Source: Treponema sp.
Lineage (GTDB): Bacteria; Spirochaetota; Spirochaetia; Treponematales; Breznakiellaceae
Assembly: GCA_009777535.1 (NCBI GenBank)
Contig: WRLP01000026.1
Coordinates: forward strand, 1-38,673
DNA: 38,673 nt
Direction: 5' to 3'
Shown: one piece after another, positions 34,009-38,673 of the stretch
How positions within the stretch are numbered: position 1 is the stretch's first letter
Layout: the number at the start of each line of letters is the position of its first letter
Made by a program: the position numbers and the translations under genes
Notes under the pieces: generated by a model
Told to the model about the DNA's origin: nothing
The model's input: only the letters and a program-made list of their open reading frames with translations
The model's database searches: none

Positions 34009-35178
34009 ATGGAAGTTGTCTATATTTTTTGCGAATCTGCTTCTGTGCGGATTCCTTTTTTTAATTACGACAGGCGTTTATTCCTGCTGCTTGTATCCGC
34101 AGGCGGCGGTGTCTGGGACGGCGGCCGGAGGGAATTTGTTTTCAGGCGGAACGAAACCCCTGACCGGTTTCGCCGGATTGCTTCGTATCTGCCATACGTC
34201 TGGGTAGCGGATAACTCCCGCAAGCTTCTGTATGTATTTAGTTTAGAGGAAGCTCAGGAAGTATCCCGAGATATTTGCTCCGCCGGCGAAGGGCCCGGGG
34301 GCGATGGTATTTTTTCCATGCCGCCGCCGCCCGTGCCGGAAAAATTTACGGAACACTGGCGCAGCAAGCTTGAAGCCGAGATGCGCTCCAGAAAGTTAAG
34401 CCCCCGCACCATGAAGGCTTACATTTATTATAACCGGCTGTTTTGCAAAACTTTGCAGAAGCCCCCTGAGGAAATCAAGCCTGATGATATTACTCTATTT
34501 CTCGCGGCGATAGAAAAGAAAAGGGAGTACTCCGCATCATCGCTGAATCTTGCCATCAGTTCTATCAGATTTTTTTATAAAAATATTTTTAAAGATGATA
34601 CTATCAGCGAGCATTATCGCCCCCATCATGATAAGCGTCTTCCATTGGTTCTCTCTAAGGCGGAAATCGGCAAAATCCTTGAAGCGGAAAAAAATCCAAA
34701 GCACCGCTTGTTGTTAATGTTAGCTTATTCTTCCGGCCTTCGTGTCAGCGAAGTTGTAGCTCTTAAGAAGGAACATATTGATCTGTCCCGCAAGGTGATT
34801 TATGTGGTGCAGGGGAAGGGGCGCAAGGATCGCTGCACCCTCCTTTCGGAAAAGGCCGCCGGTTTTATTACAGAGTACTGCGCTTTTTATGGAATAGAAA
34901 CATGGCTTTTCCCCGGCCAACTCCCAAACCGCCCCCTTACAATCCGCTCCGCCCAGCACATATTCGACAAAGCAATCCGCCGCGCCGAAATCCCTAAAAA
35001 AATCTCTATTCATAGTCTGCGCCACACCTTCGCCACACACCTGTTGGAAAGCGGCACAGATATCCGGTATATCCAAAACCTTCTCGGGCACGTACACCTG
35101 CGCACCACCGAACGATACACCCACATCGCCCGCCGCAGCGTCCTCAAGATCCAAAGCCCCCTTGACACCATTGAGTGA
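34009..35178 (+). CDS. Tyrosine recombinase with N-terminal extension
   Basis: This 389-residue protein has a full set of catalytic residues: R245 (SSGLRVSEV), K270 (QGKGRKDR), H335 and R338 (HSLRHTF), H361 and the nucleophile Y370 (TERYTH). The SAM-like core-binding domain spans about 113-205. Residues 1-112 are an extra domain with YDRRLFLLLVSAGGGVWDGGRREFVFRR, which resembles HARP-type modules fused to some recombinases. The tail ends in IQSPLD, like IntI and XerA-type enzymes. The insert that marks IntI (between the R-K block and HxxR) is absent: WLFPGQLPNRPLTIRSAQH runs straight on. It lies 1.2 kb before a cassette array and points the same way. It may act on that array, but the link is not shown by sequence alone. 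Confidence 0.9.
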   Translation: MEVVYIFCESASVRIPFFNYDRRLFLLLVSAGGGVWDGGRREFVFRRNETPDRFRRIASYLPYVWVADNSRKLLYVFSLEEAQEVSRDICSAGEGPGGDGIFSMPPPPVPEKFTEHWRSKLEAEMRSRKLSPRTMKAYIYYNRLFCKTLQKPPEEIKPDDITLFLAAIEKKREYSASSLNLAISSIRFFYKNIFKDDTISEHYRPHHDKRLPLVLSKAEIGKILEAEKNPKHRLLLMLAYSSGLRVSEVVALKKEHIDLSRKVIYVVQGKGRKDRCTLLSEKAAGFITEYCAFYGIETWLFPGQLPNRPLTIRSAQHIFDKAIRRAEIPKKISIHSLRHTFATHLLESGTDIRYIQNLLGHVHLRTTERYTHIARRSVLKIQSPLDTIE

Positions 35179-35212: not shown

Positions 35213-35443
35213 ATGGTTGATAGTATAGAAGAACGGAAAAAAAGAGTTAGTTATGCAAATTATATAATAAGAACCTTTGCATACGGGTTCAAAAGACCCG
35301 CACAAGAAATTGTAGAATACCTTGATGAATACGGCGGATTGCAATTTCTTCTCGATAATTATGAATACGAGCATACACAGTCCGAATACCACACGCACAT
35401 GGCTCTTCTTGAAGTTTGCAGAAATAACGGAGGCTGGCTTTAA
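35213..35443 (+). CDS. DUF3791-like putative antitoxin
   Basis: This 76-residue protein (KKRVSYANYIIRTFAYGFKRP, then VEYLDEYGGLQFLLDNYEYEH) looks like DUF3791 proteins, which usually lie just before DUF3990 toxins. GGGAG lies 6-7 nt before the ATG. The gene ends one base before the GTG that opens the broken DUF3990 frame, so the pair is in the usual antitoxin-first order. It follows the recombinase by 34 bp and could share its transcript. The family is assigned from memory of sequence pattern and pairing. Confidence 0.6.
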   Translation: MVDSIEERKKRVSYANYIIRTFAYGFKRPAQEIVEYLDEYGGLQFLLDNYEYEHTQSEYHTHMALLEVCRNNGGWL

Positions 35444-35768
35444 GTGCAGGTGTTCCATGGTAGCGAAATATATATATCTCTCTCACCCTGCCCACACTTT
35501 TGATATTGTGGAAGGACCTATTGCCGATGACAAAATGGTTGTCCAAATTCGGCTGTATGAGCAGGGTAAAATTTCTATTGAAAGTTTGATAGAAAGACTT
35601 ACATACAGAGAGCCTACGCACCAAATTTGTTTCTGTACGCTTGCATCACTTTACGCCCTGGAACTTGTTGATAATGTAGAATTCTATTCCGCTATTGATG
35701 AAATAACCGGAGCTGTCCTTGAAGCGATGGTTGTAGACCTGAAAGTCCCTGAATCTTCTGCCATATAA
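35444..35768 (+). pseudogene. DUF3990-like toxin, deleted and frameshifted
   Basis: A GTG at 35444 begins VQVFHGSEI, the usual first strand of DUF3990 (a putative ADP-ribosyltransferase-like toxin), but this frame stops within 20 codons. The C-terminal part resumes in another frame at HTFDIVEGPIADDK and runs through THQICFCTLASL to the stop at 35768. The central part with the family's DFGxGFY segment is gone. The toxin is therefore inactivated by an internal deletion of roughly 60 codons plus a frameshift, while its antitoxin remains intact. Confidence 0.6.
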
Positions 35769-35795: not shown

Positions 35796-35829
35796 CAACA
35801 ACCCCGCCCTGAAAGGACGGGGTATGTTG
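35796..35829. repeat. REP-like palindrome 1
   Basis: AACAACCCCG...CGGGGTATGTTGTT can form a stem (one C/A mismatch, GAA loop) just after the broken toxin. It could act as a transcript end but has no T tract. Confidence 0.5.
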
Positions 35830-35850
35830 TTTAGGTAAGGTATTTGCTTC

Positions 35851-35899
35851 GGGGTTTAATACCTTTTTTAGCGCCCTGAAGGGCGGGGTATTAAACCCC
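35851..35899. repeat. REP-like palindrome 2, nested
   Basis: GGGGTTTAATACC (35851-35863) pairs perfectly with GGTATTAAACCCC (35887-35899), and a GCCCT/AGGGC hairpin sits inside. The TTTAATACC end motif recurs in palindrome 3. Confidence 0.65.
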
Positions 35900-35901
35900 T
35901 C

Positions 35902-36006
35902 GCATACAATAAACTTTCTGATACAGATACTTTGCTTTGGCGGGAATCCTGGCAGACTTTATATAAAATGCTCAATGATGAACTTGATTTGGCCATTAAC
36001 CAGTAA
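35902..36006 (+). pseudogene. C-terminal gene remnant between palindromes
   Basis: Thirty-four codons read as AYNKLSDTDTLLWRESWQ and on to LDLAINQ before a stop, with no start codon. It looks like the tail of a small protein cut by the palindromic element. The family is not identified. Confidence 0.3.
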
Positions 36007-36031
36007 TAGCAACGCTTTTATTCGCAAGTCT

Positions 36032-36060
36032 GGTTTAATACCCCGCGGCTTGCCGCGGGG
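36032..36060. repeat. REP-like palindrome 3
   Basis: TTTAATACCCCGCGGC-TT-GCCGCGGGG has a perfect 9-bp GC-rich stem preceded by the TTTAATACC motif shared with palindrome 2. It lies 280 bp before the first cassette. Confidence 0.65.
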
Positions 36061-36341
36061 AGGTTCATTTTATGCTGCCAATCCTTTCCCGACTATGCCG
36101 GCCCCCGCTTTTAAGAACAGTTATATCCATACAAATTAAAGCCAAAGGATACCCATTGAAAATTGGTAAAAAGCCCCATTGACACTATGGATTAATAGGT
36201 ACAAATTTGTGCTACCTACACAATATACCTAATTTTTGCCTTAACACGAAACTCCCTTCGTATTAAGGCCTTGGGTTTGCGTTAAAGACTATACATCTAT
36301 CATTGAAGGGTAGGGTGTTCTTGAAATTCGGATATGGGGAG
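36061..36341 (+). other. Candidate attI region of the cassette array
   Basis: This stretch without an ORF ends at the first cassette junction, GTTAAGCG (36341-36348), whose G marks the recombination point. It contains a 13-bp stem (36238-36250 with 36257-36269, one mismatch) whose ends read CCTTAAC and TTAAGG, and a weak promoter candidate TTGACA (36179-36184), 17 bp, CAAATT that could be the common cassette promoter. The attI identity is inferred from position only. Confidence 0.55.
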
Positions 36342-36397
36342 TTAAGCGAAATAAAATATGGTATTTTGAGTATTTATAATAGTCATATTTTTAACTA

Positions 36398-36431
36398 TTG
36401 ACATATTTTTGAATTTGATCAAGAATATAAT
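36398..36431 (+). promoter_or_regulatory. Cassette 1 internal promoter
   Basis: A perfect TTGACA (36398-36403) is followed by AAGAAT (36421-36426) at 17 bp and by a perfect TATAAT (36426-36431) at 22 bp. Either places a start ahead of GGAG and the ATG at 36472. Confidence 0.55.
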
Positions 36432-36471
36432 GATTATGTAAATAATCAAATATTTGTAAAGGAGAAAAGAA

Positions 36472-36849
36472 ATGGAAGACAAAAAATTTTTGATGGGAGC
36501 ATTAATAATAATGCTAGTATTCGGAATGATGATTTTTGGATGTAGCAGTGATAAAAAATCATCTTTAGTTGGCGAATGGGATGTATGGTCGGGAGGAGTT
36601 GATTTTTTTAGTGTAACATCTCATTGTATCGACATTGCATCTAATGGGACACTTAAAAGGTATATTGGTGGTGGACCTGGTTATTCTGGTGATGGTGAAA
36701 ATAAATGGTCTGTTAGTGGTAAACGACTAACAATAGTAAGCGATGGCGATAGTTATGAATTTACATTTAATGTAAAAGATGAAATGCTTACTATTATTGA
36801 TAAAGATGGAAATGAAATGATTTTCAAAAAAAATAAATTTCAATGGTAA
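36472..36849 (+). CDS. Cassette 1 lipoprotein
   Basis: This 125-residue protein has a signal with GALIIMLVFGMMIFGC, a lipobox ending at Cys24, so it should be a membrane-anchored lipoprotein. The remainder, SLVGEWDVWSGGVDFF then NGTLKRYIGG and KWSVSGKRLTIVSDG, resembles small lipocalin-like or DUF5640-type beta-barrel modules that begin with a LVGxW motif. GGAG lies before the ATG. Codon use is more AT-rich than in the chromosome, consistent with transfer. No function is known. Confidence 0.8.
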   Translation: MEDKKFLMGALIIMLVFGMMIFGCSSDKKSSLVGEWDVWSGGVDFFSVTSHCIDIASNGTLKRYIGGGPGYSGDGENKWSVSGKRLTIVSDGDSYEFTFNVKDEMLTIIDKDGNEMIFKKNKFQW

Positions 36850-36876
36850 AGCGTATAAAAACCGCATATTTTACTT

Positions 36877-37047
36877 CGCTTAACAAACGGTTAACGCTAC
36901 GCCGCCTGTTCGGCGGCTCGGGGTTCAGTCGGCTAGGTCATGGCTTTGCCATTCCCACGCCTCCTTCACCCACATTCCAGCCCACCGCAAACCTACGGTT
37001 TGCTTTATAAGGTGGGCTGGAATGTCGTCAACCTAGAACGTTATGCG
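36877..37047 (+). repeat. attC site of cassette 1
   Basis: About 171 bp. R'' CGCTTAAC (36877-36884) and L'' GGTTAACG (with one mismatch to L' CGTCAACC at 37026-37033) lead into a long stem, and R' GTTATGCG (37040-37047) closes it. Inside, CCGCC/GGCGG, CATTCCAGCCCACC/GGTGGGCTGGAATG and AAACC/GGTTT pair. A block GTCGGCTAGGTCATGGCT is shared with the second attC. Confidence 0.85.
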
Positions 37048-37701
37048 AAAGGCTTGCTTGGTATGAAAAAAGAATTTATTTAGTATTTCATGCTGCCTAC
37101 TACCTTCATGATGCATATTAAAACATATTAAGTTGGATTTATTCGCTTAAAACTATAAGATACTTACTTGATGCGTTTAATTTTTAATGAATTGAATTTA
37201 TTAGATTAGGGCTGTAAGCATCCTACATGAAATGTCAGACTACACAGGGATTTGACTTTATCGTTTTAGGGCTGTAAGCACCCTACATGAAATGCTAGAC
37301 TACACATAGGTTTGGCTTTATCGGATTAGGGCTTTAGGCGATTTACTTGCTATGTCTGCCTACATGGAAATGGACTTTATCGGAATATTACTCTAAGCAA
37401 CCAACTTAATATGCATGGATATAAAGAAAAATGACTTCTTCGGGATTTTGCTATAGGCAGCATAAATAATATATCAGTTTACTAAAAAGAAACGATTGTA
37501 TAAATAATAGGATAATAATAAAAGAAAAGCAAGCCCATCGCATAACAGGTCTGTTTACGCTTCGGCGCTGAAGCGCCTCGGGTTCCGTTCGGCTAGGTCA
37601 TGGCTACGCCATTCCCACGCCTCACTCCACCACATTGGCGGTGGCGGTCTTGCTTCGCAAGCCCTTATATGCCGCCGCCAACGTCGTAAACAGCCGGAAC
37701 G
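37041..37701 (+). mobile_element. Integron cassette 2, no ORF
   Basis: It opens with TTATGCG after the junction G at 37040 and closes with R'' CGCATAAC (37539-37546), exact reverse complement of GTTATGCG. No frame longer than a few dozen codons is seen on either strand. It holds a tandem array of about 60-bp units instead. Confidence 0.85.
37082..37500 (+). repeat. Degenerate ~60-bp tandem repeats in cassette 2
   Basis: About seven units with a period of 59-60 bp, best kept at 37205-37264 and 37265-37324 (about 85% identical), where TTAGGGCTGTAAGCA and CCTACATGAAATG repeat; outer units diverge. Each of the best two can form a TAGG(G)/(C)CCTA hairpin with a CTGTAAGCA-type loop. A stop in each unit prevents translation as a repeat protein. 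Confidence 0.75.
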
Positions 37702-37709
37702 TTATGTGC
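37539..37709 (+). repeat. attC site of cassette 2
   Basis: 171 bp, the same length as the first. R'' CGCATAAC, L'' GTTTACG (37553-37559), L' CGTAAAC (37685-37691, exact complement) and R' GTTATGTGC (37701-37709). It shares CGGCTAGGTCATGGCT and GCCATTCCCACGCCTC with the first attC. Confidence 0.88.
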
Positions 37710-37737
37710 AATACCGCAAAAATATCAAGGAAATGTA

Positions 37738-37766
37738 TTGACAAAATAATCCTTTGAATATAAAAT
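37738..37766 (+). promoter_or_regulatory. Cassette 3 internal promoter
   Basis: Perfect TTGACA (37738-37743), 17 bp, TAAAAT (37761-37766). It lies inside the cassette, so the gene needs no integron promoter. Confidence 0.75.
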
Positions 37767-37796
37767 TAAATAAAATGAATAAAAGGGGTTATGAAA

Positions 37797-38471
37797 ATGG
37801 GAAACAGTAATGATTTTGGAAAAATGATAAATATTTCCAGTATTTTTGGTATTTTGGTTTTCTTAACTACTCCAATTACAGTAGTATTGTATTTCATGTA
37901 TAGTGGCACACCACCAGTTTGGAATGTTCTTTTAAGGACATTGGTAGCTATGTTTAGCCTTTTGTTTGTATTAATATTTTTTACATGTTTTCAAGAATTA
38001 ATCAAACATTTGGTCAAAGAAAATAATTGGATAATAAAATTAATGTATAATACTGTATGTATTTATATAGCAATAAGCTTCGTTGCTCGTTCGTTAGAGG
38101 CAGGTGGAGTATTAAATCCAGAAGGTATAGCAGTAGATGCAACTCAAGATGGTTTATTAGCACAAGGAAATTATTTATTATTAGGTTCAATCAGTCGATT
38201 ATTGATGGCTACTTTTATGACAATAATTGGAATATTAACGAACAAAATAAAAATATTTCCAAAATGGGCTGGTTTGATTGCAATAATAATTGGCTTAATA
38301 AATTTATCATTTATTCCCAGTATGTTTTTTGGAACAAATGCTGGAGATTTTTATAGCGCAATAGGTTGGGGAAATTCTGCATTTTCGGCGGGATTATATA
38401 CAATATGGATACTATTAATAAGTATGGTTTTAATAAAAAATAAGAAAAAAATAGAAAATGAATATGAATAA
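37797..38471 (+). CDS. Cassette 3 six-helix membrane protein
   Basis: This 224-residue protein (226 from ATG 37791) has about six membrane helices: 12-32, 44-64, 79-99, 128-148, 156-178 and 193-212. Charged residues at the loops suggest that the C-terminus (KNKKKIENEYE) faces the cytoplasm. The shape is like DUF4386-type integral membrane proteins, but the match is not firm. ATG 37797 is preferred since GGGG ends 8 nt before it, while it is only 2 nt before ATG 37791. It fills almost all of its cassette. Its role is unknown. Confidence 0.75.
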   Translation: MGNSNDFGKMINISSIFGILVFLTTPITVVLYFMYSGTPPVWNVLLRTLVAMFSLLFVLIFFTCFQELIKHLVKENNWIIKLMYNTVCIYIAISFVARSLEAGGVLNPEGIAVDATQDGLLAQGNYLLLGSISRLLMATFMTIIGILTNKIKIFPKWAGLIAIIIGLINLSFIPSMFFGTNAGDFYSAIGWGNSAFSAGLYTIWILLISMVLIKNKKKIENEYE

Positions 38472-38479
38472 GCGGTACT

Positions 38480-38656
38480 GCACATAACAGGTCTGTTTAC
38501 GCTTCGCCGCCTCACGGCGGCTCGGGCTACGAAAAACCGCAGTCGGGCTGCGCCCTTTGTGCGGTTTTGTCTCCGCCACAGTTTGGGCAGGGGTCAATGC
38601 TTCGCATTGCCCTATAACCTGCCCAAACCGTCGTAAACAGCCGGAACGTTATATGC
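38480..38656 (+). repeat. attC site of cassette 3
   Basis: 177 bp: R'' GCACATAAC, L'' GTTTACG (38495-38501), L' CGTAAAC (38632-38638) and R' GTTATATGC (38648-38656). The internal stems CGCCTCACGGCGG, AAAACCGCA.../TGCGGTTTT and GTTTGGGCAGG/CCTGCCCAAAC differ from the other two, but box order and size agree. Confidence 0.88.
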
Positions 38657-38673
38657 AATTGGGCACAAAAATT
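38649..38673 (+). mobile_element. Start of integron cassette 4
   Basis: TTATATGC after the junction G opens a further cassette, cut by the window edge. If real, it should close with GCATATAAC further on. Confidence 0.7.

Follow-up and report, generated by a model that had tools for sequence, protein, structure and literature searches.

The window, which is the whole stretch of DNA analysed (38,673 nucleotides), is contig C26 of an assembly of Treponema sp., a termite-gut spirochaete (2.77 Mb in 47 contigs; 92.8% completeness). It contains a gene for an integron-type tyrosine recombinase without the I2 patch, a putative attI and an array of gene cassettes whose complete members each end in an attC site; the contig stops at the end of the window and truncates the fourth cassette (Table 1). 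Contig C29 was considered as a continuation of the array, as it has a GTTATATGC...GCATATAAC cassette, but it was rejected because its sequence after the opening box differs. Between the integrase and attI, at 35213-35768, there is a DUF3791 gene followed by an ORF that matches only the C-terminal positions 92-151 (of 152) of DUF3990; these two ORFs may explain why attI lies 1163 bp (1.16 kb) after the integrase in the window, versus 60 to 550 bp in most loci of its relatives. The interval at 35800-36060, also between the integrase and attI and outside the attC sites, contains several GC-rich hairpins in which TTTAATACC/CCCCGC motifs recur. Within the array, cassette 2 carries degenerate repeats of about 60 bp at 37190-37460. 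A search for the cassette promoter Pc found promoter-like matches no commoner than in shuffled sequences.

Table 1. Features of the integrase and cassette array in the window.
Feature	Position	Strand	Remarks
I2-less integron-type tyrosine recombinase, 389 aa, transcribed towards array	34009..35178	+	PF00589, PF13495; TIGR02249 below cut-off
Putative attI	36327..36348	+	L-like TTCGGATA (read by eye), spacer, R' box GTTAAGCG; crossover expected at G^TT
Cassette 1	36342..37040	+	Junctions from matching R boxes
Cassette 1 ORF, 125 aa, lipoprotein-like N-terminus	36472..36849	+	No Pfam family
attC 1, 171 bp	36877..37047	+	Covariance model 129.4 bits, 1.2e-29; in training set
Cassette 2	37041..37701	+	No ORF of 40 aa or more
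attC 2, 171 bp	37539..37709	+	Covariance model 150.8 bits, 4.7e-35; in training set
Cassette 3	37702..38648	+	Junctions from matching R boxes
Cassette 3 ORF, 226 aa, hydrophobic (membrane-like)	37791..38471	+	No Pfam family above cut-off
attC 3, 177 bp	38480..38656	+	Covariance model 138.7 bits, 5.4e-32; in training set
Cassette 4, start	38649..38673	+	Cut by contig end

Integron cassettes open with an R' box that is complementary to the R'' box closing the same cassette. The sequence-only reading had proposed a cassette array with exactly placeable junctions, and all boxes are found at the positions it gave, in a pattern that extends to many genomes. In particular, GTTAAGCG (36341-36348) is paired with CGCTTAAC (36877-36884), GTTATGCG (37040-37047) with CGCATAAC (37539-37546), and GTTATGTGC (37701-37709) with GCACATAAC (38480-38488), while the last R' box, GTTATATGC at 38648-38656, is open and has GCATATAAC as its expected closing partner. 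The attC lengths of 171, 171 and 177 bp were likewise read correctly, as were the GTTATGY or GTTAAGY boxes in place of GTTRRRY, with the addition that a relative (G012) uses GTTAGRY too. The complementary L''/L' boxes it described do pair in all three sites, perfectly in sites 2 and 3 (CTGTTTACG/CGTAAACAG) and with one mismatch in site 1 (GGTTAACG/CGTCAACC). Moreover, the 8-mer of the putative attI was predicted from the R'' box of the first attC, and it occurs a single time between the integrase and the array. Five Markov shuffles of the window yielded zero sites in a strict hairpin scan, which required paired R and L boxes, and zero to two sites each in a looser scan.

An Rfam search of the window matched no family, and a covariance model was therefore built from 38 sites in nine genomes, including the three from the window. 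These sites align with a common fold that contains an R stem, an unpaired spacer, an L stem and a junction with side hairpins; the spacer is uneven, with 3-4 nt versus 6-7. Within the arms, 96.5% of the cells are paired, a figure biased upward because the structure was derived from the same 38 sequences, and 14 of the 25 pairs have double changes. The covariation score is 0.338, compared with 0.094 after shuffling and at most 0.092 after sliding. A third side hairpin appears in single-sequence folds and lies outside the consensus that was tested for covariation. The R core AAC/GTT is kept and its outer bases vary, as in attC. Accordingly, the covariance check called for by the earlier reading does find an attC fold, using our own model (129.4-150.8 bits for the three window sites, which are in its training set). 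Within the same genome the model has 14 matches, 11 of which are weaker and outside the training set, the last one being marginal. Across the loci searched it has 101 matches, where the training-set sites match by construction; at five classic IntI loci and in Bacteroidetes and Firmicutes relatives, it has none.

In classic attC sites, I2 binds an extra-helical base of L'' (PMC2727003). The extra-helical L'' base is not conserved in the present sites, because the L stem is mostly uninterrupted over its first 8 bp: all eight pairs form in 56 of 78 readable sites and seven of eight in another 15, and a bulge improves only four. The loci supplied too few clean canonical attC sites to serve as a control for this count.

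The integrase has a small N-terminal domain (residues ~1-77), which no Pfam model matched, and a core-binding and catalytic portion (~115-389) with SAM-like and catalytic tyrosine recombinase domains. The NCBI integron integrase model, TIGR02249, aligns with it in two blocks (4-171 and 241-314), leaving the region of the IntI-specific patch (171-241) unmatched, with a score of 196.6 bits that is below the cut-off of 265; the NF040815 score of 205 is also below its cut-off of 220. The spacing from the KDR to the HxLRH motif is 59 residues, versus 100 in classic IntI from the same bacterial family (measured in the three proteins where the motif was readable), and the measured I2-less copies have spacings of 58 to 65 residues, mostly 59. 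The catalytic residues R, K, H, R, H and Y are invariant or nearly so across 26 I2-less proteins. An AlphaFold model has no helix in the I2 region and places a small alpha/beta domain in front, although its mean pLDDT of 77.6 and pTM of 0.47 make the domain arrangement unsure. The nearest solved structures are XerA and VchIntIA, and the core is closest to XerA. No other integron-type integrase was found in the assembly, where the remaining matches are weaker and Xer-like. Two classic spirochaete IntI (L102 and L103) and the I2-less integrases of Flavobacterium (L044-L049) are also preceded by an N-terminal domain of similar appearance (F.YD..L...W).

The arrangement recurs in the same bacterial family. 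Of 200 genomes, 94 have a match to the integron-integrase model, which passes the cut-off in only five; attC sites of this type occur in 167. The I2 patch is absent and the catalytic residues are retained in all 59 spirochaete loci read, and in nearly all loci with enough flanking sequence the array lies 3' of the I2-less gene on the same strand. Further, 44 of 57 fragmented loci have a contig end within 3 kb 3' of the gene, compared with 18 that have one within 3 kb 5' of it; a repetitive array behind the gene would produce such a bias. For example, a relative assembled as a single contig (G012; 4,646,109 bp) has 42 attC sites in one orientation over 38 kb directly behind its I2-less integrase, and 35 of its 36 ORF-bearing cassettes have their longest ORF in the direction of the array. 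A second single-contig genome (G144; 4,059,867 bp), which may be Treponema primitia ZAS-2, has attC sites in two stretches behind its I2-less integrase. No classic IntI exceeds the cut-off in either genome. I2-less integrases of about 47% identity, likewise with arrays, occur in other families of the order.

Several loci depart from this layout. In two of them (L137 in G159 and L159 in G180), a site lies 5' of the I2-less integrase on the opposite strand, which is the usual integron layout, and in another (L118 in G111) inverted sites lie 3' of it. In a genome of 3,855,671 bp that may be T. azotonutricium (G142), both copies of the I2-less integrase (L093 and L100) look broken, one being split between model positions 262 and 302 and the other lying in pieces in different frames, and attC sites remain. 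In the genome of the window itself, six attC-like sites, one of them weak, occupy G000:C5:85627-94460 (locus L035) with no integron-type integrase nearby. Several I2-less loci with several kb of flank have no site under the covariance model, which is tuned to few site types.

The pairing of R boxes provides a quantitative test of cassette structure. As R' complements the R'' box of the same cassette, the R' box of one site should match the R'' box of the next site and not its own. Over the five variable bases, this rule holds exactly in 61 of 74 comparisons between successive sites, versus 9 of 83 within sites. In the 42-site array, 37 of 41 junctions are exact, compared with a mean of 7.3 and a maximum of 16 in 10,000 permutations; one array (L196) is non-discriminating, as its boxes hardly vary. 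Of 17 readable loci, 15 contain the exact attI 8-mer predicted from the first attC, usually with an A/T-rich motif after it. The claim that the array fits only the circular-cassette model is reasonable for the junction pattern; the pattern alone shows neither the responsible enzyme nor present activity. Overall, the sequence-only reading recognised the array and its circular cassettes, and overlooked the adjoining I2-less integrase and the conserved branched fold of the attC sites.

An independent case comes from the Flavobacteriaceae, where an integrase homologue is present in 144 of 249 genomes. In 27 loci examined, 85 sites of another sequence family and about 133 bp in length occur in 21 loci; all 85 lie 3' of the integrase on the same strand, as seen with 5' flanks that mostly extend only 3 kb. 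Their junctions are exact in 34 of 56 instances (permutation mean 2.25, maximum 8), 12 of 19 loci contain the predicted attI 8-mer, and these genomes have no IntI over the cut-off. At one locus, in Flavobacterium agri, at least six sites of 165 bp lie behind the I2-less integrase. The L stems of the Flavobacteriaceae sites frequently have an A.C mismatch on the top strand, corresponding to G.T on the bottom strand, which is a possible cue for strand choice. Elsewhere, a Firmicutes relative (Thermincola) and two Bacteroidetes relatives have no attC in the available flanks, and viral contigs have relatives at only 27-44%. On a Mesorhizobium plasmid (NZ_CP080530.1; L212), a 39.6% relative of the integrase lies directly upstream of an IS91 family transposase, and related copies recur several times per plasmid in rhizobia and Paraburkholderia.

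Phylogenetic trees separate a clade of classic IntI (100/100) from a clade of spirochaete I2-less proteins (92/90). Because the sampled classic IntI are monophyletic (100/100), descent of the I2-less clade from them was rejected. In the best tree, IntI group with Bacteroidetes and Firmicutes I2-less proteins (82/86); a tree that unites both integron groups is not rejected (AU p=0.284), so the tree does not decide between gain and loss of I2. A tentative reading, to which we give somewhat less than even weight, is that cassette recombination at folded attC is independent of I2 and older than it, that I2-less integrons are widespread (Spirochaetota and Flavobacteriaceae), and that classic IntI emerged from among them by a later gain of I2. 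If so, many clusters now called CALIN are complete integrons whose integrases are invisible to the standard search.

By sequence, the locus has an I2-less recombinase, one attI on its 3' side, and cassettes in the same orientation that each end in a 150-180 bp attC. These features make it probable that it is a chromosomal integron whose cognate integrase lacks the I2 helix and works without it, and the Flavobacteriaceae case, with its sites on the 3' side and its junction rule, is counted in support. In the proposed mechanism, the integrase would cross over at the G^TT of R', releasing circular cassettes by attC x attC recombination and inserting them at attI. As in other integrons, it would act on attC as a folded bottom strand, and it would probably read the uneven spacer and the junction of the L stem with the side hairpins where classic IntI uses I2 to grip extra-helical bases. 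We infer both single-strand recombination and current activity.

The first of three alternatives is that the array is a CALIN, built by a classic IntI that was lost or unassembled, beside an I2-less neighbour that is unrelated or merely maintains arrays. The incomplete assembly allows for this, as 92.8% completeness means that a classic IntI may be missing from the assembled contigs; attC clusters do occur far from any integrase in the same genome (contig C5), many genomes have attC with no I2-less gene found, and five same-family genomes have a classic IntI. Nevertheless, the five classic-IntI genomes have none of these attC sites, no classic IntI passes the cut-off in the two single-contig genomes with arrays, the I2-less gene is adjoined by attI and the first cassette, and the same arrangement is found in Flavobacteriaceae genomes with no IntI over the cut-off; this explanation is therefore unlikely. 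Against the main reading stand the several-kb flanks with no site under the covariance model, the reported need of IntI1 for I2, and the fact that across the 200 genomes the I2-less gene does not predict the presence of attC (77/88 versus 89/106, p=0.54). We attribute this null result to fragmented assemblies, which are a sufficient reason for it, although the attribution is unproven.

A second alternative, which we consider slightly less probable again, is that recombination of attC by the I2-less integrase takes place on ordinary double-stranded DNA, as with Xer at dif, the hairpins having another role such as transcript stability. The absence of I2 and a core closest to XerA are in keeping with this, as is the ancestral double-strand activity that IntI1 retains (PMC7790495). 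However, the R and L arms stay complementary, and the L stem and side hairpins covary, though sequence differs between site types, and the R core is kept while its outer bases vary as in attC; arm complementarity, covariation and R core would also fit a structured RNA. Finally, REP-like or terminator hairpins that resemble attC by chance, a notion encouraged by the GC-rich hairpins at 35800-36060, have a negligible probability, as the Markov controls are near zero, the junction rule and attI prediction would have no reason to hold, and the ORFs of the 42-site array run one way in all but one cassette.

The interpretation as an integron with an I2-less integrase bears on the defining rule of integrons. 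I2 is described as found in no other protein (PMC7790495), and the same source, citing Messier and Roy 2001, reports that IntI1 requires it to capture cassettes. Should the I2-less integrase prove cognate, the I2-necessity rule would fail, and both the defining rule and the detection software may need revising. The origin of integrons would also become testable, with natural I2-less recombinases paired with attC sites that have no conserved I2-bound base. IntegronFinder demands a match to an IntI-specific domain profile (PMC9668308), and it is only because of this requirement that the integrase would be missed; such systems are expected to go unseen or be filed as CALIN. Moreover, no integron was reported in termite-gut Treponema (PMC3607928), which the presence of sites in 167 of 200 sampled relatives contradicts; if the second single-contig genome is T. 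primitia, it conflicts with the statement there that this species has no integron. No description of I2-less integrons was found in the literature searched, which excluded preprints and most subscription journals.

Several known systems share parts of this organisation. XerA-like and IS91-associated recombinases (NF040815; the Mesorhizobium protein) have a short loop at the I2 position and about 40% core identity, but no attC array was found when two plasmid loci were read, including one beside an IS91 transposase. CALIN likewise comprise attC clusters to which standard tools would assign no integron integrase, and IntegronFinder's definition would probably still call the present system a CALIN; here, in contrast, the array comes after a candidate I2-less integrase and a putative attI. 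The integrons of T. denticola, T. succinifaciens and T. brennaborense have IntI integrases and attC sites of 63-132 bp (PMC3607928). In such oral and intestinal Treponema integrons, too, intI points towards attI and the cassettes, the arrays are long with mostly unknown genes, and the attC sites have R and L boxes; by their published description, the present system differs in its I2-less integrase, its 150-180 bp sites and its conserved branched fold. With classic integrons (IntI1, VchIntIA/VCR), it shares attI, R- and L-boxed attC sites, G^TT circular-cassette junctions, one-way ORFs and a tyrosine recombinase, whereas it has no I2 patch, its TIGR02249 score stays below the cut-off, the first 8 bp of its L stem do not conserve an extra-helical base, and its integrase falls in a separate clade. 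Overall, the system has the cassette-side features of an integron that were tested and lacks the defining I2, and it is thus a variant distinct from IntI integrons.
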